From: Cladochytrium replicatum
Lineage: Eukaryota > Chytridiomycota > Chytridiomycetes > Cladochytriales > Cladochytriaceae
Assembly: GCA_025526935.1 (NCBI GenBank)
Contig: JAHLKD010000097.1
Location: 1 to 64,000 of the forward strand
Direction: 5' to 3'
DNA length: 64,000 nt
A program made the position numbers and the translations under genes. Below, piece by piece: positions 1 through 60,148 of this stretch (within the stretch, counting starts at the first letter, position 1; every line of letters begins with the position of its first letter). The notes under the pieces were generated by a model. It had not been told where the DNA came from, made no database searches, and saw only the letters and a list, made by a program, of their open reading frames with translations.

Positions 1-1188
1 GAAACAACTTCCTTTCAGAAGAAACAACATTTCTGGACTTTACAGGCGGCAGGGACACAAGTACGGCATTTACAGAGGAATGCCCGTCACTGCAAAGGTT
101 GATGAGTTCCAAGCGACCATCAAACGAGCAGATGAGGACCGTGAAAGGACAAAACAGGTCCTCAAACAGTCAGAACGACTGTTGAACATGACAAAAGATC
201 TTGAAGAGACTGCAATGAACGAGAGAAGGACCCGCATCGCAGCAGAAGTGCGAGAGAAGGCTCTCATTGATGAATTGGGCAGGGCGGGTGCATTGATTCA
301 GCACGGCGAGCACGAAGAGCTAGCAAGATTCAGGGAGATCACCGCGCAATGGAAAGGGAGAAGCAGGCAACTTCCCAGGAGATTTCACAATGGAAATCAC
401 GTGTGACCGCCCTGGAGGGAGAGCTTGCTGCTCTGAAACGACAGGCTGGTCATTCAGAAGCTGCAGCACCTGCGGCGCCAACATCAACAGGCGGCCTAAT
501 AAGCATATCGTCGGCTATCAAGGGGATTGGTAGAATTCCGAAGGTACATCGAACCAGTTCTCCAACGAGTTCCCTTGCATTGCTTAGCCTGCAGCAGCAT
601 CGTCGTACGGCTATCCTTTTGGTGAAAGAGGTCATCCAGGGTATCTGCTTCCAGATGCATAAGATCAATGAGGTTATTTATGACCTTAAATTGCCGTCTC
701 TTCCACCAGCAATCAAGTACGTCAATGTAAACTACGAAGTCCTCTCCCGAAATGAGTTTTTACGGCCCATATTTGTTGAATCAGACGACCGCTCAAGCCG
801 AATATCAACTTCAAGTAGCAGTTCTCGGAGCAGCCTTACTCTTCTTAGGGTGCACATTTTGCTCGGAAACTGGATACGGCACAATAATTCGCTAAGTACG
901 TCTGCCACTATCTATCGCATGTTCAGGGCATTAGTGGATGCATATCCTTCTGAGTGGCTAAGGTTCTGGACGGCATACATCGGGCATCTTTCGTCCATAA
1001 CGCTCCCTGAGGTGGATTGGAAACCTTGGAAGACAGGTTTAGCCAAGGATTTCATGCTTTCAAATGACGACATTGATCGGTTCATCAGGACTGGGTTGGT
1101 GAAGGACGTAACCAGTGGTGGATGGGACTCTGACGATATGAACCAGATACAGAAGCTGATTTGGGCTGTTCCACCTATCAACTTGTGA
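1..1188 (+). pseudogene. hAT-linked coiled-coil gene, copy 1 (3' part, frameshifted)
   Basis: This is the second copy of the gene at about 21300-22960, on the opposite strand. An open stretch from ATG 80 covers a charged, heptad-like coiled coil (motifs RADEDRERTKQVLKQSERLL and EETAMNERRTRIAAEVREKA). A second frame from about 349 to the stop at 1186-1188 gives a 270-residue C-terminal domain with no recognisable family. Compared with the other copy, bases are missing near 24, 50 and 345, each shifting the frame. The C-terminal frame here is intact, whereas copy 2 is broken there. The 5' half is outside the window. The function is unknown, and I recognise no transposase, nuclease or polymerase motif. 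Confidence 0.7.
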
Positions 1189-1473
1189 TTGCTCAGTGGA
1201 GTTTTGTTTCTTTTTACGATAGTGTTTCTAAAATACACACTGTCCACACAGACACAAAGTGTTCATGTAAATATCCGTGGTCTAACTCAAAATTCAATCA
1301 ATCCTCTCCTGGGCAGCAAAAACCCGGCGGGTCAGGGTCGGGTACGGGTTTCAACCACTTCGGGTCCGGGTATTCCCTTTGTACCCGTCAGTGACCCGGC
1401 GGGTCCCCAGACAAACACGACCCGACCCAAAGGGTTTGGTGCGGGTCGCCACTGAAACCCGGACCCGACCCGG

Positions 1474-1488
1474 ACCCGCCGAACCTTA
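1474..1488. repeat. hAT terminal inverted repeat, copy 1
   Basis: The 15 bases are the reverse complement of TAAGGTTCGGCGGGT, identical to the left terminus of the complete element at 20987-21001. Confidence 0.85.
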
Positions 1489-2320: not shown

Positions 2321-3618
2321 TCACTCAGACATGGCTTTAATAGCAACGTAAGCACAAAGTGCTCCTGACAATAAAAATGCAGGAATAAAATAGAACACTT
2401 CTTTGAGCGGAGTGCTGTGGAAGCGAACGATATGGTCTTTCGGTCCCAAATTGTACGCTAAGCAATTAAATGAGTAACTAGTCACCACATACACCATTAC
2501 ACCATCCCTAACTTACCAAATAGTCCGTAGAGTGGGAAAGCTAAGAAGTAAGTCGAGACAAACACCAAGTTTGCTTCGAAGCTGGGGCTGAATGTCACAA
2601 GCACATTCCCGACGAGGTGGAAAAACGAAGCCCAAAACAGAAGCGAAATGCGCTTGTATAAAGGACTGTCGCTTACGTGATCCCCTTCATATTCTTCTTC
2701 GTTGAGCAGCGCCTGGCGATCCGAGACAGAGTTTGAGTGATGCGAGCGGTTGGCGAAGTATAGGCGAGCGAAATAGAAAACCAAAAGAAAGTCACTGATC
2801 AAACCCTGGAACTTGAAGAATAGGGCATCGACCGGCCATGGAGCTGCAGTGCAAATGGCCCAGACCAGCGAGACGTAAGGGATAATAATTGGGTACGTGA
2901 TCTTGTATCTGAGTAGAAGATCGGTTGAGCGTGCTTGCTAAAAGATAGGAAGATCTCTTACCCGTCAGTGCGCGTCAGCAAGATAAGTATTGCCACTTCA
3001 GAGGCGTTGTGTTGCGCCAGCTGTAGCGAAGATCTTGCTAAGGTCAAAGAAGAGTACTGTGATGATTGAAAGGAAAGTCGACTGTCCGAAGTGAAGACAT
3101 ATGAGTGAACTTCAACAACGGGGAAGTGTTTTCCTTACCAAAATGTACACCAGAATGAAATTAACGAGTGCCTCTCGTGAAACGTACTCTGCCCTCAACG
3201 TTTCGGTAAGACTGACTTTGAATTTGTTGGTGGAGATGTTGTATCGCTTGGCTAGGATAACACTAATAACCTGGAGACACTAGTTTAGAAATGAAGTTCG
3301 GTAGGGATAGCACAGTACCATCGCGAGCATCGTGGCGATCTGCGATGCGATGAATGCATCCAAAGGAAATACTACAATGATCATGATCAGCACACAGAAA
3401 CAAATGAAGGTCGGGTTTTTCTTACCAGGCTCATCGGGCCTCCAGGTAGGAGTTCCGAACAGGCTCTTCCCCTGTGGAGGCGGTGCTGGCAGTGAGATCA
3501 TGTTCAGATGCAGTTTGGATGCTGGAAGCTGGACCACTGGCGGGCTTGTTACCTTGGGCTTAAAGCATTTTAACACGCCACAACATACAACCGCATGCAG
3601 ATCAGCTGGTGGCTCCAT
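2321..3618 (-). CDS. Lineage-specific multi-membrane-segment protein (gene A), possible frameshift
   Basis: I do not recognise the family. The start is ATG at 3618 (MEPPADLHAVVCCG). Exons are joined by short GT..AG introns: a first exon ending in a hydrophobic helix (ICFCVLIMIIVVFPLDAF), one with ILAKRYNISTNKFK and LVNFILVYIL, one with ILILLTRTDG, one with YPIIIPYVSLVWAICTAAP, ISDFLLVFYFARLYFANR and FPLYGLF, and a last exon ending YVAIKAMSE. That gives six or more hydrophobic segments. Near 3015-3025 the frame breaks by two bases relative to the relative at 4290-4440, so this copy may be dead or hold a sequence error. Two further damaged copies flank it (2027-2300 and 3801-4440), which marks a decaying tandem cluster. 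Confidence 0.5.
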
Positions 3619-13109: not shown

Positions 13110-13881
13110 TCAAGGCTCATATGTGTAGACCTGTGCGCGCCAGGTTCCTCCGCAATATTCGTACTCATCTCCCGAGCAACTCGTCGCGCATTCGGATTCC
13201 GGAGCCGTTCCAAGGTTGTTGTGGAATGTATTGTCGCACCAGCATTCATTTCCATATTGAACAGCAGCCAGGGGATAGCCTCGATTGTTGCACGCATTAA
13301 TGCAGGCGGCGGCAGTCATCGGGCTGTTGTTGAACGTATACGCCGAAAGCAATCGAGGGGAGCTTTGGTCCTTGTAGCACCCAACGTAATGCCAGTTTGT
13401 AGGCAGTCCCGTCTTTTTGATTGCGTAGTGACCGTAAGTCAGCAGATAGTTGTTTCCGCCGCAAGCGTCGCCGGGAGATTGAGGACACGGATACGTCGTG
13501 CACAAGCTGTCGTCAACCTTAGTTGGGCTGCCGAGTAAGTTGCTGCCACCGGTACAGAGATACCCGTAGGAGAGTCCGGCATATCGTAGATCGCGAGCAT
13601 GGACGTCAGAGAGACAAAAGTTGGGTGTCATCGCAACTGAAGAGGGATTTGCGAACTCGTTGAGAATGTTCGGGGAAGTGTTTGGGGCATAGCAGCCTTT
13701 GTACCTCCAACCACTTTCCAAACCCGATTGCTTGATTGTGGCCTAGAAGTTATTTCAATCAAAAGCGATGGTCAAATTTCATCAAATCCAGATAGATATA
13801 TAAACTTACAGCTGCGACTCCCAAAGAGAAGGGAGTTATAGCAGAGAGCAGAATGAACTGGATGGTCGATGGGAAAATCAT
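13110..13881 (-). CDS. Secreted protein with two WSC domains
   Basis: Exon 1 (13881-13810) encodes a signal peptide (MIFPSTIQFILLSAITPFSL). After an intron with donor GTAAGT, exon 2 (13742-13110) gives a 234-residue precursor. Two WSC domains follow in order. The first starts GWRYKGCYAPNTSPNIL and includes CLSDVHARDLRYAGLSYGYLC and DACGGNNY. The second starts NWHYVGCYKD and includes AAACINACNNRGYPLAAVQY, ECWCDNTF, CATSCSGDEYEYCGG and ends VYTYEP. The paired cysteines of each domain are present. WSC domains bind carbohydrate in cell-wall sensors and wall enzymes. No transmembrane helix follows, so this is a secreted or wall-bound lectin-like protein rather than a sensor. Decayed relatives lie at 19800-20060 and 29500-29930. 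Confidence 0.88.
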
Positions 13882-20765: not shown

Positions 20766-20986
20766 TTAGGGCTGTATGTTGAGGATTTTTTGAATGTTGA
20801 GCAGAAGCTGGGGGTCCAGCACATGTTTAATCACTTCATAGACTCCAGATTGAGGATCTGCATCAATTTCAGCCTTTACTAGCTCTCTGCGGGGATATTT
20901 TTGTGCATCTCTCCCAATCCAACTCCAATAAGACTTTGCCCCTGTGCAGCAGAAGACATGATCGATGTCCTCTATCCCCTCACTAC
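20766..20986 (-). pseudogene. Non-LTR retrotransposon, C-terminal end (left of the hAT insertion)
   Basis: The minus strand reads EGIEDIDHVFCCTGAKSYW, then IGRDAQKYPRRELV, and ends at a stop at 20766-20768. It is the C-terminal zinc-knuckle region of a fungal RNase H-bearing retroelement protein. The first half of the knuckle (KCALCS) lies beyond the hAT element, at 27121 and beyond. Removing the hAT and one target duplication makes the two pieces read in one frame. Confidence 0.75.
20979..20986. repeat. Target-site duplication, left copy (CTCACTAC)
   Basis: These eight bases directly precede the TAAGG terminus and are repeated exactly at 27113-27120. Eight base pairs is the duplication size made by hAT transposases. 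Confidence 0.95.
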
Positions 20987-21001
20987 TAAGGTTCGGCGGG
21001 T
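20987..21001. repeat. hAT terminal inverted repeat, left
   Basis: The sequence is TAAGGTTCGGCGGGT. It pairs with the reverse complement of 27098-27112 and is identical to the end of copy 1 at 1474-1488. Confidence 0.92.
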
Positions 21002-21299
21002 CCGGGTCGGGTCCGGGTTTCAGTGGTGACCCGCACCAAACCCTTTGGGTCGGGGTGTGTTTGCCTGGGGACCCGCCGGGTCACTGATGGGTACAAAGGG
21101 AATACCCAGACCCGAAGTGGTTGAAACCTGTACCCGACCCTGACCCGCCCGGTTTTTGCTGCCCAGGAGAGGATTGATTGAATTTTGAGTTAGACCACGG
21201 ATATTTACATGAACACTTTGTGTCTGTGTGGACAGTGTGTATTTTAGAAACACTATCGTAAAAAGAAACAAAACTCCAATCACAAGTTGATAGGTGGAA

Positions 21300-22960
21300 C
21301 AGCCCAAATCAGCTTCTGTATCTGGTTCATATCGTCAGAGTCCCATCCACCACTGGTACGTCCTTCGCCAACCCAGTCCTTATGAACCGATCAATGTCGT
21401 CAATTGAAAGCATGAAATCCTTGGCTAAACCTGTCTTCCAAGGTTTCCAATCCACCTCAGGGAGCGTTATGGACGAAAGATGCCCAATGTATGCCGTCCA
21501 GAACCTTAGCCACTCAGAAGGATAAGCATCCACTAATGCCCTGAACATGCGATGGATAGTGGCAGACGTACTTAGCGAATTATTGTGCCGTATCCAGTTT
21601 CCGAGCAAAATGTGCACCCTAAGAAGAGTAAGGCTGCTCCGAGCACTGCTACTTGAAGTTGATATTCGGCTTGAGCGGTCGTCTGATTCAACAAATATGG
21701 GCCGTAAGAACTCATTTCGGGAGAGGACTTCGTAGTTTACGTTGACGTACTTGATTGATGGTGGAAGAGACGGCAATTTAAGGTCATGAATACCCTCATT
21801 GATCTTATGCATCTGGAAGCAGATGACCTGGATGACCTCTTTCACCCTAAGGATAGCTGTATGACGGTGCTGCTGCAGGCTAAGAAATGCAAGGGAACCG
21901 GTTGGAGAACTGGTTTGTTGTACCTTCGGAATTCTACCAATCCCCTTGATAGCCGACGAGATGCTTTTTGGGCCGCCTGTTGATGTTGGCGCCACAGTGC
22001 TCCAGCTTCTGAATGGCCACCCTGTTGTTTCAGAGCAGCAAGCTCTCCCTCCAGGGCGGTCACACGTGATTTCCATTGTGAAATCTCCTGGGAAGTTGCC
22101 TGCTTCTCCCTTTCCATTGCAGCGGTGATCTCCCTGAATCTTGCTAGCTCTTCGTGCTCGCCGTGCTGAATCAATGCACCCGCCCTGCCCAATTCATCAA
22201 TGAGAGCCTTCTCTCGCACTTCTGCTGCGATGCGGGTCCTTCTCTCGTTCATTGCAGTCTCTTCAAGATCTTTTGTCATGTTCAACAGTCGTTCTGACTG
22301 TTTGAGGACCTGTTTTGTCCTTTCACGGTCCTCATCTGCTCGTTTGATGGTCGCTTGGAACTCGTCAACCTTTGCAGTGACGGGCATTCCTCTGTAAATG
22401 CCGTACTTGTGTCCCTGCCGCCTGTAAAAGTCCAGAAATGTTGTTTCCTTCTGAAAGGAAGAGCTTTTCAAGCACTCCATACGATAGGCGTTTGCTGCTG
22501 TTATGAACTCCGTTCGTCCACTGCATTCATCGTGAATTTCGTTCAGGGCTTGACGAACTAGCTTGCTGTCAGAGTTAAGTCGGTCGATCAACCCTTGAAG
22601 AACAAATCTTGGGCCGCATTCATCACGATTTGTTTGACAGTTGCTGATGAAATCCTCCGAGTCGTAGCTGTGGCCGCTTGCTTTGAATTTTCGATACCAA
22701 AGTCGTATGTCTGAAGCAGGACAGAGTCCGTCGATGAGCAAATAGTCAGCATCCCCTTTAGTACCACGTCGCGCCGGTTTCTTTGAAGGAGCTGTCGATT
22801 TGACATCTGTCGATTTGACATCAAGGCCAACTTCTGCTTCTTCCACTTCAGAACCGGATCCCAGAGATGTTTCAGGTGCAGTCACAGGTTCTGCACTTGA
22901 TTCTCTTTCAGATGATGGTCTGGATTGTTTTAACGCTCGCTTCTTTGTAGTTCGAGGCAT
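21300..22960 (-). pseudogene. hAT-linked coiled-coil gene, copy 2 (two single-base lesions)
   Basis: The start MPRTTKKRALKQSRPSSERE opens a basic and acidic disordered region with a duplicated VKSTDVKST motif. A folded stretch follows (DADYLLIDGLCPASDIRLWY, DRLNSDSKLVRQALNEI), then about 130 residues of coiled coil and a C-terminal domain. The frame holds from 22960 to about 21990, where one base is missing relative to copy 1. A second base is missing near 21357, which removes the C terminus. Without these lesions the product would be near 590 residues. No catalytic motif is recognised. The gene ends 313 bp from the element's left terminus, as in copy 1, so it travels with the element. Roles in DNA binding, in transposase partnering, or as a captured host gene are all possible; none is shown. 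Confidence 0.72.
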
Positions 22961-23099
22961 GGTGTTTGTACTGTTTGTCGTGGGAAGATACTGGCCCGGT
23001 GTTCTTAGCCGGAATGTTACAGGAATGTATGCTATAATACTTCCCTGACACTATAGTTTTCTACCTGATCTGAAAATAATAATAAGCTAGGGAAGAAAC

Positions 23100-23560
23100 T
23101 GGCTAGTAACATTGATAGAGAGGATTCTGTCCGGGTGGACAGAATCTTATTGCTAGTAAAATTGATAGAGAGGTTAGCTGTACTTGATAGAGATCACTGA
23201 AGTACCGTCAATGAGTTGAGAAAGTGTCTGGGTGGACAGAATCTTATTGCTAGTAACATTGATAGAGATGTTAGCTGTACCTGATAGAAATTACTGAAGT
23301 ACCGTCAATGAGTTGAGAAAGTGTCCGGGTGGACAGAAATCTGGGAGACTGAGTGTCACTGTGTCTGTCTGGGTAGAATAGGATTCTGTCCCCCCGGACA
23401 CTTTCTCAACTCATTGACGGTACTTCACTGATACTTCACTGATCTCGATCAAGTACAACCAACCTCTCTACAAATACTACTCACAATAGGATTCTGTCCA
23501 GGCGGTCGCTTTCTCAACTCCTGGACAGTACTTCAACAGATGAACAGTCTAAACAACAAT
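23100..23560. repeat. Left array of ~97-bp repeats with an inverted half
   Basis: Two to three units of the same repeat as the right array (core AAAGTGTC(C/T)GGGTGGACAG) run in the plus direction to about 23340. The repeat then returns inverted from about 23380 to 23535 (GGACACTTTCTCAACTCATT). The junction forms a near-perfect inverted repeat. Confidence 0.85.
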
Positions 23561-23566
23561 TTATAT

Positions 23567-25994
23567 TTACAAGAGTGGGTAATCATCAGTTGCTTCCAAC
23601 TCTAATACCACATCAAAATCCTCGCCAAAATTATGCACCTTTACAAAATCCTCACTAACATCACTTTTTGAATCTAGGGAATCATTTTTGAACGGTTCTT
23701 CAGCACTCAATTGATGCAACCAGTCATGACGGCACATCAACGCATTTATTGTTCTTGGAGCAAGGCGGTTGCGAGTTGCAGGTACCAAATCAACCCCGGC
23801 TGAAAACTTTTGTTCGACTGGAGCGCTTGTTGCTGGTATTCCTAAATAGTCCATTGCCATCTGGCTTAGGGCTGGAAAGTTCACACTTCCAACGGTCTTC
23901 CACCAGTCCATAATATTGATTGGCTTCCCATCAGAATCAATACCGCGGAGTACCTGATCGCCAAGATAGCGATCCAGCTCATCTTTTTCCTCAGGAATCT
24001 CTTCTTGCCAGATGAAAACGGATCTAATGGCTCTCAAGCGTTCAGCGTCTGTTCTTTTCTGTCTATCACCGGAAGCTCCGCTCGAATCGTGTCAACGTTC
24101 TGGCGTGTTTCCCAAAACATCGGCACCACTGTTCTTGATTTTCCGTGACTTATACGATTCCTCCCAGACTTTCTGCACTAGGGTGACCTGATCCCTTCCT
24201 GCATCTTTCTCCCAAGCCTCTGAAAATCGATAATATTGATCCTTAAAACGAGATCGAGTACCATAGAAACTGCTAAACACGGGCTCTTAGCGATTGAGTA
24301 ATATATTCTCAGCTTATCTAGTGCATTTCGAAATGCTTTGGTGAAAGTTTCATCCAATTCTGCCTCCTCTAGGTCCTCCAGTTGATCGATAAGATCGTTG
24401 TAAAATGGAATAACAAGCAGAAGTGTTGGATATCTAGACCCCTCGATTGCCTTTGATATAACCTCGAAAACACTCAAACCATCCCGGATCTTCTGTAGGA
24501 CCTCCCATTGCTTTGGATTTATTGACCAATCTTTCAAAGAATCTTCAATCCAGCATATTTTGTCCATTGCCTCTCGTAGCTGTAAGGCTCGTTTGACCAT
24601 ATAGAACATGCTATTCCAGCGAGTTGTCACATCGATAATTGGTAATAGAGGAACCAGTTTCACAAATTGGCACGAATCAATAAATGAGCTTCGTCGTTTT
24701 GGGGAAGACCGGATTCCTCTGACTAGCCGTCGAAGAAGGTTTATGACATTAACGCCGGAGTTATCGTCATTTGCGACTGTGTCCCCTGCGGGCGTGAATG
24801 TATCGATAAAATCCTTTGCTGCAAGATTGATAATGTGTGCCATACACCGCATGTGTTGAGTTTCTGCAGACCACGCAATATCCCTATCTTCCAAGAGCGT
24901 CTCCAGCTTAGCACTCATGGTAAAGTTGTTTGAACCGTTGTCGGTTGTAATGCACAATAAGCGTTCACCCGATAGCATGCCAAATTCATCCAGACACTTG
25001 ACAAGCTGACTAGCCATGGCGACCCCTTCATGCTTTCCAACCATCGGAATCATCTGCAGCAGCAAGTCCTGCGGCTCCCATTCTTTCGTGATGAAGTGGG
25101 CGGTAATTCCAAGAAAAGAAATCTGGTTCTTCGATGTCCAACAGTCAGCTGTTATTGATACTTTTGAAGGCGAACCAACAATCAGACCTTTAACGAGCTC
25201 CTTCTGCCTATCGTAAAGATCCATCTCCTTTTGCTTCACTGCTTTTGCTGTCTTTGGTGTATAGTTTGGCTGAAAAGTCTTCAGCATGCTGACAAAGAAC
25301 TCGTTCTCCACAACAGTAAAAGCCTGAGTGTCTGCAGCAATCCAGTCCAAAATCGACCGCCACGCTACATCTGGATTGAACACAAAGTTTTGCTCCTTCT
25401 CCTGCGAGCCGAAATTCAATGTCTGTTGTCCCTTGGGGACGATGTCCAACAGTCCAAGCGACCTGGCAATACTTCCATGGTGGTTTTTCAGATGCTGGAG
25501 GAAGTTTTTTGTTGATCCCGTCTTATCGACCTTCTGGCTCCACTTGCATTTCGCAACCAAACATGTTCTCAGACCATTATCAACCTTATAGTAATCCTTC
25601 GCTATGCCGCCTCGACTACCTCTACAGTCCGACATGCTATCAACATCTGCGTCTGAAAGCATTGATGGTTGAACTGATCCAGCTGCAGGCTCCTGTCGCA
25701 CTGAAGAGTCAGCAAAACTAACGTCGGCAGGAAGCTCTGGTGCATGCTGAGAAGCCAGGCCCAACTCGCTGGAGTCATTGGAAGAAGATGTGGAGCTCAG
25801 CTCTCGAGCGCTGTTGTTGCCACTGTGTCCTGATACACGTCTGCGTTTTGTCCTGCATGCTGTTCCCCTCGCTGGACGCCTCTGAAATTTGGGGGCAGAC
25901 TTCGCTTCCGTGTGTCAAGCGGATGACTGTCCACCAGTCTTTGGCTTGCGTCGGACGCTGCCTTACGCTTTGGTTTAACAAAGGCGGCGTCCAT
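23567..25994 (-). pseudogene. hAT-family transposase with BED zinc finger (frameshifted)
   Basis: The main frame (25764-24178; in-frame start there is TTG, so the true start is upstream, possibly ATG 25994) begins with a BED-type finger (CLVAKC..., NFLQHLKNHHG). It continues into an RNase H-like catalytic core with ITADCWTSKN, ITTDNGSNNF and MRCMAHIINLAAKD, the conserved Asp-bearing and C/H motifs of Ac-type transposases. At about 24253 one base is missing inside the VLDPRFKDQYY motif; the frame then resumes as RFKDQYYRFSEAWEKDAG. The C-terminal dimerisation domain is at 24037-23567: MDWWKTVGSVNFPALSQMAM, YLGIPATSAPVEQKFSAG, RNRLAPRTINALMC. A second shift separates the N-terminal frame (25994-25797) from the main one unless an intron lies there. 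The element is therefore non-autonomous as it stands. Confidence 0.9.
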
Positions 25995-26107
25995 TTTTGC
26001 TGTGGTGTGGCTGGAACGTTACCGACTCTAATGTCCAGGTGCACAGAAAGCACAGCTCTCGAGGTCTGTCGTGGTAGAAATTGTTTGTTACAGAACTTCC
26101 GTTGTGA

Positions 26108-26905
26108 CTTCTTGGAAAGTGTCCGGGTGGACAGAATCGTATTGCTAGTAACATTGATAGAGAGGTTAGCTGTATTGGGTAGAGATAACTGAAGTACGTC
26201 AATGAGTTGAGAAAGTGTCCGGGTGGACAGAATCCTATTGCTAGTAACATTGATAGAGAGGTTAGTTGTATTGGGTAGAGATAACTGAAGTACGTCAATG
26301 AGTTGAGAAAGTGTCCGGGTGGACAGAATCCTATTGCTAGTAACATTGATAGAGATGTTAGTTTGTACTTGATAGAGATCACTCAAGTACCGTCAATGAG
26401 TTAAGAAAGTGTCCGGGTGGACAGAATCTTATTGCTAGTAACATTGATAGAGAGGTTAGCGGTACTTGATAGAGATCACTGAAGTACCGTCAATGAGTTG
26501 AGAAAGTGTCTGGGTGGACAGAATTTTATTGCTAGGAACATTGATAGAGAGGTTAGCTGTACTTGATAGAGATCACTGAAGTACCGTCAATGAGTTGAGA
26601 AAGTGTCTGGGTGGACAGAATTTTATTGCTAGTAACATTGATAGAGATGTTAGTTGTACTTGACAGAGATCACTCAAGTACCGTCAATGAGTTAAGAAAG
26701 TGTCCGGGTGGACAGAATCTTATTGCTAGTAACATTGATAGAGAGGTTAGTTGTATTGGGTAGAGATAACTGAAGTACGTCAATGAGTTGAGAAAGTGTC
26801 CGGGTGGACAGAAAATACATGCCTCGATGTCTGTTGTGATGCAAAATTGTTTGATACATACAAAACTTATATTGCGTCTTCTTGGAAAGTGTCCGCGTGA
26901 CAGAA
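26108..26905. repeat. Right array of ~97-bp tandem repeats
   Basis: Units start at about 26115, 26211, 26307, 26405, 26502, 26599, 26696 and 26792, spacing 96-98 bp, each beginning GAAAGTGTCCGGGTGGACAG or a one-base variant. A diverged last copy is at 26885. Inner parts alternate between two variants (TGTATTGGGTAGAGATAACT and TGTACTTGATAGAGATCACT), so the array grew by duplicating mixed units. Such arrays are typical transposase-binding regions. Confidence 0.92.
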
Positions 26906-27097
26906 AGAACAATAGCTTCGTTTTAGCTTCTCTATCACATCGGGTTTTACTCGGGTCTGACTTTTGACCCGAGAAGGGTTTTCCTACTGGACCCGATACC
27001 CGACCCAGATCCGACCCGAAAATTTTCCATGAAAACCCGGCACTCAGGTCGGGTACATTTGGTCAATGGACCCGGACCCGACCCGAAAGACCCTAAA

Positions 27098-27112
27098 ACC
27101 CGCTGATCCTTA
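27098..27112. repeat. hAT terminal inverted repeat, right
   Basis: Its reverse complement is TAAGGATCAGCGGGT, differing at two of 15 positions from the left end. Confidence 0.9.
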
Positions 27113-27120
27113 CTCACTAC
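27113..27120. repeat. Target-site duplication, right copy (CTCACTAC)
   Basis: This matches 20979-20986 exactly and lies immediately outside the right terminus. Confidence 0.95.
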
Positions 27121-41147: not shown

Positions 41148-43416
41148 ATGTCAGCTATGATCACACCGGATCTCATCGCCGACGCAAAGGAGGCAGCACA
41201 TCTTAGAATTGCAGACCTTTTAAGATCTCCAGATGATCTTACAAACAAATTACCCGGGATCCGCCGGAAATTCGGGAAGGAAGGAGCGTCAATAGAAGCC
41301 CAATTGAAAACAGTCGTGGAATCACAGTTAGAGGATGCACAGCGCGGTCTCGACGTATTAGGAATGTCTACAAGCATAACTGAGCAGCTTAAGGGAAATC
41401 TCTCCACGATAGACAGGCTTTGTGCTGATGCCCAAAGTTCTATCAGCAACTTCTCGAAGATTGAAAAGGTTTATAACATATGTGTGTTCTGACACGTTCC
41501 TAAACTTTGGAATTGTTAAGATCTCGAAGGCACATCAGAATTTTAAGCGAACGAAACAAGTGATAGATAACTTCCAGCAACTTAGCAACAATGTAACAAG
41601 AGTAAACCAGCTGTTGGAGGTGGACTCAAAGGATCCACAAGGATCAGCTGACAACTTGCTACTGATACACTATCAACTATTCCAGCTTGAAAATTTTCGA
41701 CATGAAACACTTCAAAAGGCACGCGGATTCTCCACAGATGTCATGAACACCCTAAATACCTATTTCCAAAGAGTGGACGAAATCGCCTCGCGCTTTGAGA
41801 CTTTCTTGTGGCAACTCGCAAAGAACGTTATCCCTTTAGTCAAAAAAGGAAATCCTTCAACTGTTGTGCGCTTAGTTAAGATAATCGAGATGGAAGAGCG
41901 AGCAGACGAGATGGCTGCCTTACAGGAGGTTGGCGATGATTCCCGTTCACGACCCATCAAGTCCTACCGCATTAAATTCTTTGATGTTATTCGGGAAGGT
42001 ATTTCTGATCAGATGGCGAACATGTACAACGAGTTCAAAGGAGATCTACCAAAACTCATGTGGGGAATGGATAAGGCGGTTGATGATCTTGTATTGATCC
42101 ATGATGAAGTCGTACCGCTGTTTGCCAAGCGCTACAACATCTTCCAGTTCTTCGTTCTCGAGTGCCACCGGAATGTCTACGAAGTTGTAAACCGGACTAT
42201 TCATGGACCGATGGACGCCGGAGCAATTCTGCAACTTCTCAAGTGGGTCCGAGACTATTACAGCAATATGAGTGGAAGGCTGGGTGTCGGAGAAGAGCTG
42301 CTTGAGCCAAGGTTACTGGATGGGAATGAGGAAGAGCTGATCGGGCAATATGTCAATCTGGTCCACGACAAACTTTCGGAGTGGCTCACAAATTTGTTAC
42401 GAACAGAGACAGCCGATTTTATCAAAAGAGATCATGCACCGGAGATTGATGGAAACGGGATGTACTTTCTCACAGGTTCCATCATCGTGTTCCAGATGTT
42501 CAACCAGCAACTAGACATCATTCAGAATTCGTTCAGGGGACAACTGTTGACCGACGTTGTTAAGGTCTGTACATCACTCATTGAGCAGTTTCAAATGACG
42601 TGGACTGAGGTTCTGGATGCCGAACACAACAAATTCCTCGCCAAATCACCAGAACTCACATTGGGAATCGTGGAGTACACCTGTGCTCTAGCTAATGATT
42701 CAATGCGATCTACTGAGTTCTCTGATATCATTACCGCCCGCTTCGAGACACTTGCTGATACGCCACAACGACAACAAGTCTTGGGTTACATCACAGCTGT
42801 GCGAGATGGATTCATGAAGCTCGCAAAACACTGCTACACGGTCGTGATCGACATCATGTTGACGGATGCGAAGCCTGCTTTCTCTAAACTCCACTGCCCA
42901 GAATGGTACGAGCAGGATCTGATGAAACTTGTTATCGGGACACTTGAAGACTACTGTGATGATCTCCAGGCACACATGACTGAGTATCTATTCAGCAAAC
43001 TATCAACAGACCTCTTGGATCGGTTTTTGATATTATATATTGACACGATGCGATCTAAGAGTGCAAAGTACCGCATGCCAGCAGCAGTCGATCGACTGAA
43101 GAGCGATCAAGCTCTTGCTTTGGAGTTTTTCTCGAAATACAAGAGTGCGAAGAGAGTTAAGGCATCCTTTGATGTCATTGAAAAGCTGGTAGCCATGCTG
43201 GAGAGCAATGCCCGCATTGCTTTCCTCGACTTCTATGCATTGTGGAAAGCCTACCCGGACATCCCTATTCCAATGGTTGAAGACTTGTTTGGGAAGAGAG
43301 ATGACTTGGATCGAACAACACAAAAGGAACTGATTGAAAATGTCCGCCAAAAGGTGAAAGAGGAGCCCCTTGCCGTGACACAACCATCAATCTTCAGCCG
43401 GCTGCCAGCGAAGTGA
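41148..43416 (+). CDS. SEC6: Exocyst subunit SEC6 (EXOC3)
   Basis: Sec6 is one of eight exocyst subunits that tether secretory vesicles to the plasma membrane. Two exons (41148-41468 and 41521-43416) with a 52-bp intron give 738 residues, close to human EXOC3 and somewhat shorter than yeast Sec6 (805). The N terminus is coiled coil (KEAAHLRIADLLRSPDDLTN, ISKAHQNFKRTKQVIDNFQQ). The conserved PSTVVRLVKIIEMEERADEM and the rod-like helical body follow. The C-terminal Sec6 domain includes YEQDLMKLVIGTLEDYCDD, FLILYIDTMRSKSAKY and VEDLFGKRDDLDRTTQ. The alternative ATG in the second exon is not needed. No lesion was seen. Confidence 0.93.
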
Positions 43417-58680: not shown

Positions 58681-60148
58681 AAATGGGTTTATTCATACAA
58701 ACTCGATGAAGATGGGAACATCATCCGATTCAAGGCACGATGGGTAGTTAGAGGGTTCTCCCAGATACAGGGAATGGATTTCGACAAAACCTATTCTCCT
58801 GTGGCGAAAACCACTACAATTCGATTACTAGTTGCTCTTGCTGAAATTAGCATATCTCAATGCATCACTTGAGGAAGATGTTTATGTTGAAATGCCTCAT
58901 GGATTTACAGAGACTGACGAATCTGGCAATCCATTAGTTTGTAATCTTGTCAAAAGCCTATATGGTTTACATCAAGCTGCTAGAGAAAGGTACAAATGCC
59001 TCTGGGCAAAATATGACGACATGGGATACATCCGTGATCTTTCAGATGCTTGTCATTTCTGGCAAATGAAATCATCTACTCACAGTTCCACAGTGAAAAT
59101 ACGTGAACACACTACTGTTCATGTAGATGATATTCTTCATTTCTCTGCAGACCCAAATGGCTACCAGGACTTCATGGATGGCTTGAATTCCTCATTCAAG
59201 GTCGGAAGTCACTCTACAGCAAAATGGATTCTGAAAATGCAATTGATCAAAACTACTCATGGTTATTTCATAACCAATGCTCAATATGCAAAGGAAATAT
59301 TGCAGAGATTGAAATTATGGGAATCCAATTTAAGACCAGCCAAAACACCTATTTCTTCTCACTACGAACATGACACAAGCTTGCCTATTTTATCCAAAAA
59401 TGATGCAACAATTTTTCGGTCAGAACTCATGAAAATCTCGTACCTAGCTACAAAGACAAGACCTGATTTATCTTATGCTGTCAATGTCTTGGCACAACAT
59501 CAGGTTGAACCACGAGTTTGCGAACAAAAGGCACTAGCTCGCCTGCATCGTTACTTATTGGGAACATGGGACTATGGTTTGCATTACACACGCAACAACA
59601 TACCCACTCCCAACGTACATTCTGATGGTGTATATGAGTTTGCATCAAATGAACACATCCCTATGGGATATGCTGATGCAGACTGGGCAAATGATCCTGC
59701 TCGCTATTCCAGGACAGGATATGTTGTAATGTTTGCCAATGCAGCTGTTTGCTGGCAATCTACAAAGCAACAGGTTATAACTTGCTCTTCCACTGAAGCA
59801 GAGTTATATGCATTGAATGAATTATCACGTGAGATGAAGTGGATGAAAAACGTCATGGCAACCATTGGTATTTCATGCAAAAGTAAGCCCATGATTCTCT
59901 GGCAAGATAATACCTCTACACAGTCTATTGCCAATGACCTGCTTAATGATCACAGAACTAAACACATGGATGTTCGCGAAAAGTTTGTGAATCTTCAAAT
60001 TGAGCAGAAGCAGCAGGAACTCAGAGATATTGATACAGAGAACCAAATTGCTGATATTTTCACAAAACCCTTGACATTCAAATTATTCTCAAAATTCACA
60101 CGCGCACTTGGTCTTACACGTCAATCTGATTTGACCCTTGTTGACTAA
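58681..60148 (+). pseudogene. Copia pol fragment (reverse transcriptase and RNase H)
   Basis: RVT_2-type motifs are KWVYSYKLDEDGNIIRFKAR, GMDFDKTYSPVAK, LNASLEEDVYVEMPHGF, LVKSLYGLHQA and HVDDILHFS in place of the usual YVDD. At about 58840-58850 roughly 15 residues are missing, with a frameshift. That segment normally carries the first catalytic Asp (QMDV motif). The RNase H part is well kept: GYADADWANDPARYSRTGYV, CSSTEAELYALNELSREMKW, LWQDNTSTQSIANDLLN, TKHMDVREKF and the terminal QIADIFTKPL. A stop at 60146-60148 ends the frame. The enzyme cannot be active. Confidence 0.88.

Follow-up and report, generated by a model that had tools for sequence, protein, structure and literature searches.

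The 64,000-nucleotide stretch analysed here (hereafter the window) comprises bases 1-64000 of contig 97 of the chytrid Cladochytrium replicatum (genome 50.5 Mb, 198 contigs) and harbours, at 20987-27112, a hAT element whose terminal repeats are flanked by an exact 8-bp duplication, CTCACTAC, and which carries two genes, one for a hAT transposase and a second, ORF1, for a protein with a coiled-coil-like stretch. Genomic counts, all of which refer to this one genome, show that both genes are propagated as one unit, constituting a high-copy two-gene hAT transposon. Arrays of a 97-bp repeat unit containing the palindrome TGTCC-N4-GGACA lie upstream of both genes, and ORF1 may be the element's own DNA-binding partner protein, comparable to TnpA or VANC and acting through these palindromes, a tentative reading by analogy that we believe nearly as readily as we doubt it. 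The initial annotation had described the matching ends, the duplication and the transposase, all of which are upheld (TAAGGTTCGGCGGGT and TAAGGATCAGCGGGT at the ends, CTCACTAC in the flanks and a match to the Dimer_Tnp_hAT family), together with the coiled-coil gene, for which it had considered capture from the host or a nested arrangement as alternatives.

Copy number and linkage of the two genes

The element is abundant in the genome: (i) the 17-mer of the left end occurs at 327 sites at ≤1 mismatch, (ii) the 16-mer of the right end at 333 sites, (iii) two 24-base ORF1 markers at 305 and 303 sites at ≤2 mismatches, and (iv) a 24-base transposase marker at 245 sites. Reversed controls for the end, ORF1 and transposase patterns returned 0 or 1 matches, and the value of 0 for the ORF1 markers excludes chance as the source of their counts. 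Linkage was assessed on exact matches only, among the first 100 places listed per pattern and on contigs 1-43, comprising 96 left ends, 100 right ends, 96 and 95 places for the two ORF1 markers and 100 for the transposase marker; the listed places on later contigs (4 left-end, 0 right-end, 4 and 5 ORF1, 0 transposase) were left out, whereas two transposase protein hits and 49 ORF1 protein hits on contigs 1-43 were also taken in.

Among these listed matches, 48 of the 96 left ends are matched by a same-orientation right end within 15 kb; five of these pairs exceed 9 kb and may hold insertions or be mispaired. Both genes lie within 38 of the 48 pairs, ORF1 only within seven, the transposase only within one and neither within two, placing ORF1 in 45/48; copies lacking ORF1, a predominance of which would have spoken against the partnership considered in the initial annotation, are not the rule. 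The lone transposase-only pair is 6275 bp, full length, and its ORF1 markers are probably altered. A first pass with a single ORF1 marker had given 35 pairs with both genes, six with ORF1 only, three with the transposase only and four with neither. The lengths of the end pairs include steps of ~97 bp (6822, 6918, 7012, 7110, 7210 and 7305), as expected from array growth.

The same association emerges from the individual markers. An ORF1 marker lies just inside 75 of the 96 listed exact left ends, and for 63 of the 96 listed exact ORF1 3′ markers an exact left end is found 300-900 bp further out, so that ORF1 does not occur mainly outside such termini. ORF1 evidence is found on the expected side of 71/100 listed transposase markers and on the other side of 0/100; the first ORF1 marker alone gives 56/100 on the expected side and three on the opposite strand. 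At the protein level, 40 of the 82 scored transposases have a partner among the 110 scored ORF1 hits in the correct order and within ≤6 kb, compared with two in the wrong order and four on the opposite strand in the controls, and both frames are open in 22 of these 40 pairs. Taken singly, 49 of the 82 scored transposase hits (800 residues or more) and 58 of the 110 scored ORF1 hits (574 residues or more) are free of stops.

Mobility as a unit

The mobility sample comprises the window element and 20 fetched loci (21 copies), 13 of them with both ends. Exact, mutually different 8-bp duplications flank nine of these 13; ORF1 is present in 9/9 and both genes, whole or in part, in 7/9, while none of the nine carries a transposase without ORF1. 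The other two-ended copies (L021, L022, L024 and L027) display unlike flanks. Two copies of 2.7 and 3.0 kb (L010 and L026) show the 8-bp duplication and ORF1 and no transposase; copies of this kind, with ORF1, ends and sites, may have been mobilised in trans or may have lost the transposase after insertion. At L025:301-911 there is a short stretch that looks like an element, is bounded by two left ends and has 8-bp flanks that differ.

The first pass left 32 of the 100 listed transposase markers without evidence of either ORF1 or a left end. Eighteen loci with seemingly absent ORF1 evidence were fetched, comprising (i) eight of the 32 (L029-L036) and (ii) ten chosen by transposase hit (L037-L046), nine of these hits being without a stop and that of L046 with one. 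In the first group ORF1 is present in pieces or remnants in five loci, and none was found within the 5 kb fetched in L032 and L034; in the second, the chosen copy is accompanied by ORF1 and a left end in seven loci. L029 is cut by the contig end and L038 is interrupted within its array, neither being informative on ORF1. Since 12 of the 18 fetched loci hold ORF1 sequence for the chosen copy, the notion that marker-negative copies are ORF1-free hATs was rejected.

Three of these loci deserve a separate description. From about position 600 on, L038 contains foreign sequence within the 97-bp array, perhaps a retrotransposon. At L042:4467-5301 a transposase copy without ORF1 lies between two right ends; its flank, searched for beside a right end, gave no match and no matching duplication, its mobility being putative. 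L043:3487-4301 holds a second transposase copy that directly adjoins its neighbour's left end and is truncated a little upstream of the expected ORF1 start, and the ORF1 found in that locus belongs to the neighbouring copy, already counted as paired.

A nested or composite arrangement, in which a transposase element inserted into a non-autonomous ORF1 element, could be read from the facing 97-bp arrays in the middle of the element and from the L042 and L043 transposase copies, whose left side bears a right end or a foreign junction. However, the window element contains no internal termini at ≤2 mismatches, seven copies hold both genes within one end pair and one 8-bp duplication, and the transposase-less copies have the same outer ends, which makes this arrangement, one of those considered in the initial annotation, scarcely credible.

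Transposase and hAT membership

The open transposase product of the copy L028 comprises 811 amino acids and matches the Pfam family Dimer_Tnp_hAT with an E-value of 2.2e-20, the C-terminal piece of the window transposase doing so at E 9.5e-21. The L028 product also matches hAT-like_RNase-H weakly, under the curated cut-off (E 6.2e-5), and the Hermes transposase structures in a phmmer search (E ~4e-12), mainly in the C-terminal region and weakly elsewhere. Terminal repeats of hAT elements begin YA(A/G)NG; here both ends start TAAGG in 12 complete copies that were tabulated and in L027, the thirteenth two-ended copy, which was left out of that table as internally rearranged. By its terminal repeats, 8-bp duplications and dimerisation domain, the element is a member of the hAT superfamily. 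A Dimer_Tnp_hAT profile search of the genome, in which the best 150 of 297 candidates scored from 80 to 68 bits, may point, by this narrow range, to one hAT family among the candidates scored.

Three putative catalytic-site motifs, picked from Hermes positions, are unaltered in seven of the 12 tabulated copies; in the other five the transposase is absent (two), one motif is missing (two) or one motif is altered (one). The L028 transposase, whose frame is otherwise open, carries a substitution in one of these motifs, indicating that open frames need not mean active enzymes.

The ORF1 product

From its first ATG the ORF1 product of L028 comprises 560 amino acids, with a computed mass of 63 kDa and isoelectric point of 9.05; the figure of about 590 codons given in the initial annotation holds for the stop-to-stop frame of many copies and not for this product. 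As that annotation had noted, the gene has no known domain: the Pfam search returned no family at cut-off, and the profile searches disclosed a coiled-coil-like stretch. A heptad signal is located at about residues 271-336 (shuffle p 0.01-0.07), and residues ~190-325 show weak matches to designed coiled coils, Gfh1 and GCN4 (E 0.4-1), as well as to HlyD and SMC models and a phage scaffold protein. The HlyD (1.2e-4, far below its cut-off), SMC and phage scaffold (4.8e-5) matches were read as generic coiled-coil similarity, as were those to Rab11-FIP3 (E 0.024, window piece) and Spc24 (0.75, whole product). No Pfam match to a TET/JBP domain was obtained up to E 1 in ORF1 or its pieces, and the three stretches of viral contigs that fit an ORF1 peptide pattern do not code for a relative.

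Selection on ORF1 was evaluated with L028 as the coordinate reference and with 2000 simulations that keep mutation type and CpG context. Three old relics show an excess of synonymous changes: (i) L035, the most diverged (84% identical), with 52 of 121 substitutions synonymous versus 32.8 expected, a value reached in 0/2000 simulations; (ii) L033, with 22 of 51 versus 15.0 (p 0.017); and (iii) L036, with 13 of 22 versus 7.6 (p 0.010). These relics suggest purifying selection on ORF1. Selection among the young ORF1 copies was also considered, with 4/12 single comparisons of at least 20 changes at p <0.05, 11/23 synonymous changes among those common to at least three copies (p 0.04) and 6/12 among the changes private to L028 (p 0.08); it was rejected, the four comparisons sharing one reference and the polarised test not being significant.

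ORF1 could instead be a passenger gene captured from the host, like the histone H3 copies in fungal hATs, with an old capture as its ultimate origin. Host-gene capture by fungal hATs is on record (PMC6710886; this and the other publications cited are drawn on in excerpt), ORF1 fits no known family, which would allow a lineage-specific host origin, and selection is not seen in the young copies. On the other hand, the 110 full ORF1 hits listed, the best candidates scored, are 85-100% identical to the window product and include no separate host version, the three old relics suggest selection, the ORF1 of L028 has an upstream palindrome array like that of the transposase, and ORF1 markers occur in 45 of the 48 end pairs among the listed matches; the passenger explanation is considered quite improbable.

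Palindrome arrays

The palindrome TGTCC-N4-GGACA is present at 3502 genomic places versus 23 for the reversed pattern, and it is concentrated in the element, with 25 exact occurrences in L028, nine in the window element and none in the remaining 56,394 bases of the window; the initial annotation is silent on these arrays. The palindrome nearest to the ORF1 start in L028 lies 168 bp upstream, and a one-mismatch version precedes the transposase start by 38 bp. In addition to the arrays, single sites flank the genes towards the termini: the leftmost site, which invariably has one mismatch, is located 234-246 bp from the left end in 12/12 tabulated copies, and the rightmost site (≤1 mismatch) 209-211 bp from the right end in eight of the 12, the other four having it at 169, 177, 261 and 302 bp. 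A diverged 529-bp non-autonomous relative at L033:2699-3227, with ends 76-78% alike and flanks matching at 6/8 bases, keeps an exact palindrome, TGTCCGGGTGGACA, and a one-mismatch copy.

Over 137 distinct units, agreement averages 0.94 at the ten arm positions and 0.87 at the four spacer positions, these being averages without a significance test. Unit positions 17-40 show an agreement of 0.71; since small insertions and distance from the anchor depress this figure, the contrast of arms and spacer is the fairer comparison.

Forward and inverted 97-bp units stand side by side in eight of the 12 tabulated copies. The facing arrays at 23100-23520 of the window, folded as RNA, reach -196.7 kcal/mol (z -15.4), and a transcript reading through them would fold into a long hairpin that might trigger RNA silencing. 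The fold and the adjoining units would agree with an explanation in which the arrays act mainly as RNA, a read-through hairpin tuning silencing and ORF1 being an RNA-related factor. Strong folding is, however, expected of any inverted repeat, the isolated palindromes near the ends lie outside the arrays, and the better average agreement of arms than spacer points to DNA recognition; a mainly RNA-based role is therefore regarded as highly improbable.

A DNA-bound function could also be exerted by the transposase itself, with ORF1 performing another task, for instance as a protein-protein cofactor. Transposases of the hAT superfamily bind repeated subterminal sites, palindromes are found near both ends in most complete copies, and ORF1 has no recognisable DNA-binding domain. 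Against this, the outer ~160 bp of both ends, rich in GGGTC/GACCC, would be the better candidate for transposase binding, the palindromes are chiefly gene-proximal and not terminal, and element-specific arrays accompanied by a second gene recall the VANC layout as excerpted from PMC5735166. Binding of the arrays by the transposase is judged unlikely.

A putative partner protein

The preferred reading remains that of ORF1 as a DNA-binding partner. A basic coiled-coil protein and arrays of inverted-repeat sites fit a homodimeric DNA-binding protein, and we infer the binding, dimerisation and functional role of ORF1 along the following lines: (i) ORF1 would dimerise through its coiled coil; (ii) the dimer would bind TGTCC-N4-GGACA upstream of both genes and near the ends; and (iii) once bound, it would maintain promoter activity of the element in the manner of VANC in Arabidopsis VANDAL elements, and/or assist synapsis of the ends, like TnpA in maize En/Spm. 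The gene-proximal arrays favour a VANC-like role and the single sites near the ends a TnpA-like one, both being possible; as a matter of judgement, anti-silencing is put slightly ahead of a function as transposition cofactor. A more ambitious version, somewhat doubtful although worth stating, is that of a hAT lineage with a two-component system of its own, independent of VANC and TnpA, in which a domain-orphan coiled-coil protein would read the TGTCC-N4-GGACA arrays, drive both genes and mark the ends, with the expandable 97-bp arrays tuning the activation of each copy.

Several observations weigh against the partner reading. It is by inference that the palindrome is tied to ORF1 rather than to the transposase, and the profile searches recognised no DNA-binding domain in ORF1. 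The gap between arms and spacer is modest, one arm position (0.847) falling below most spacer positions. Transposase copies not paired with their own ORF1 exist (L032, L034, L042 and the second copy in L043); each is broken or abnormal on its left side, a normal left end is present in none, and movement without ORF1 is demonstrated for none of them. Among the young copies, the union of ORF1 changes gives 66/223 synonymous versus 59.1 expected (p 0.16), the shared ORF1 changes after removal of those private to L028 give 5/11 (p 0.20), and the transposase gives 81/283 versus 76.6 (p 0.29), with 0/9 single comparisons significant. Finally, the support comes from one genome.

The window element part by part

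Between the left and the right end of the window element, both genes are on the minus strand, and the order from the left is ORF1, 97-bp array, facing array, transposase and second 97-bp array; frameshifts break both genes of this copy, the ends and the duplication being intact. The left target-site duplication, CTCACTAC, occupies 20979..20986 and is followed by the left terminal inverted repeat, TAAGGTTCGGCGGGT, at 20987..21001 (plus strand). The left subterminal region at 20987..21150 is rich in GGGTC/GACCC, as judged from its sequence and from the motif positions in L028, and is a candidate region for transposase binding. The left subterminal palindrome, TGTCTGTGTGGACA, with one mismatch, lies at 21221..21234, 235 bp from the left end. 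ORF1 extends over about 21280..22960 on the minus strand and is frameshifted near residue 321 (frames 22960-21842 and 22076-21327), and the array upstream of it, at 23128..23338, contains palindromes at 23128, 23225 (one mismatch) and 23322.

The inverted repeat of the 97-bp type, downstream of the transposase stop at 23387..23508, is short here and comprises ~13 units in L028. The broken transposase gene occupies 23567..25994 on the minus strand (frames 25994-25797, 25764-24178 and 24037-23567), and its upstream array, at 26032..26813, displays palindromes with 0-1 mismatch at 26032, 26120, 26216, 26312, 26410, 26507, 26604, 26701 and 26797. The right subterminal region at 26884..27112 is likewise rich in GGGTC/GACCC, and the palindrome seen here in other copies is damaged near 26891. 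The right terminal inverted repeat, the reverse complement of which is TAAGGATCAGCGGGT, lies at 27098..27112 on the minus strand, ending at 27112, and the right target-site duplication, CTCACTAC, at 27113..27120.

A second copy, at 1..1488 on the minus strand, has its left end at 1488 and the 3′ part of ORF1 at 8-1188, and is incomplete because the window starts at base 1 of contig 97. The recurrence of ORF1 beside the same end in this copy, reported in the initial annotation, is real, the distance from the ORF1 3′ end to the terminus being ~290-300 bp in both window copies. Elsewhere in the window, the clearest host genes encode the exocyst subunit Sec6 (41422-43416) and a WSC-domain protein (13110-13721), and a copia-type reverse transcriptase fragment (RVT_2, E 6.9e-19) is located at 58832-60148.

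Comparison with known systems

Elements of the hAT superfamily are usually described as one-protein transposons, and typical members are not known to have a second gene or large palindrome arrays. The present element shares with Hermes, Ac and the fungal hATs a Dimer_Tnp_hAT transposase, short terminal repeats and 8-bp duplications, and differs from them in its second gene and large palindrome arrays. The initial annotation had regarded a partner protein in a hAT element as unusual, which is too strong, as fungal hATs with a second gene have been published (PMC12730594 and PMC6710886, in excerpt). Two literature leads on hATs with two reading frames concern, in the parts consulted, other elements. 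No description of a hAT with a domain-orphan coiled-coil partner gene and palindrome arrays was found in the titles and abstract openings listed by searches of the open-licence PMC literature. Thus, second genes in fungal hATs are already known, and the combination of a domain-orphan coiled-coil gene with palindrome arrays appears to be new.

Among the fungal examples, the hAT7 elements of rust fungi carry a TET/JBP dioxygenase gene (Kojima 2025, PMC12730594). As excerpted there, they resemble the present element as fungal hATs with a second gene, in their case proposed to counter silencing, but display 7-bp duplications and a TET/JBP enzyme, compared with 8-bp duplications and a domain-less protein here. 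In Pseudocercospora fijiensis a hAT carries a captured histone H3 (PMC6710886), likewise a high-copy fungal hAT with an extra gene; in the excerpt that gene is a housekeeping gene inactivated by mutation, whereas ORF1 bears no recognisable likeness to a host gene and often has an open frame.

Closer parallels in layout come from other superfamilies. Accessory genes are documented in Mutator-like elements, according to the excerpt of PMC6446971, and VANC binds short motifs that recur in tandem within non-coding stretches of VANDAL elements, lowering their methylation (PMC5735166). As excerpted, that system has in common with the present one an element-specific short motif, variable-number tandem arrays in non-coding DNA near genes and an accessory protein. 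VANDAL elements are, however, Mutator-like and not hAT, and the present element is likened to them by its layout, the binding of ORF1 being putative. En/Spm transposition requires TnpA, which binds subterminal repeats, together with TnpD (PMC2613891, in excerpt); the likeness extends to size (67 kDa versus the computed 63 kDa of ORF1) and may extend further to repeated sites near the ends and to deletion derivatives served in trans. On the other hand, En/Spm is a CACTA element whose TnpA derives from an alternatively spliced transcript, in the excerpt of the same source, whereas ORF1 has its own frame and upstream array. Of the candidate sites in the present element, one lies towards each end in most complete copies and the many repeats stand beside the genes. 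If the partner reading of ORF1 is true, silencing escape or end assembly of DNA transposons would become testable in a fungal host with one short motif and two proteins, and hAT would join the Mutator-like and CACTA elements as superfamilies pairing a DNA-binding helper with arrayed sites.

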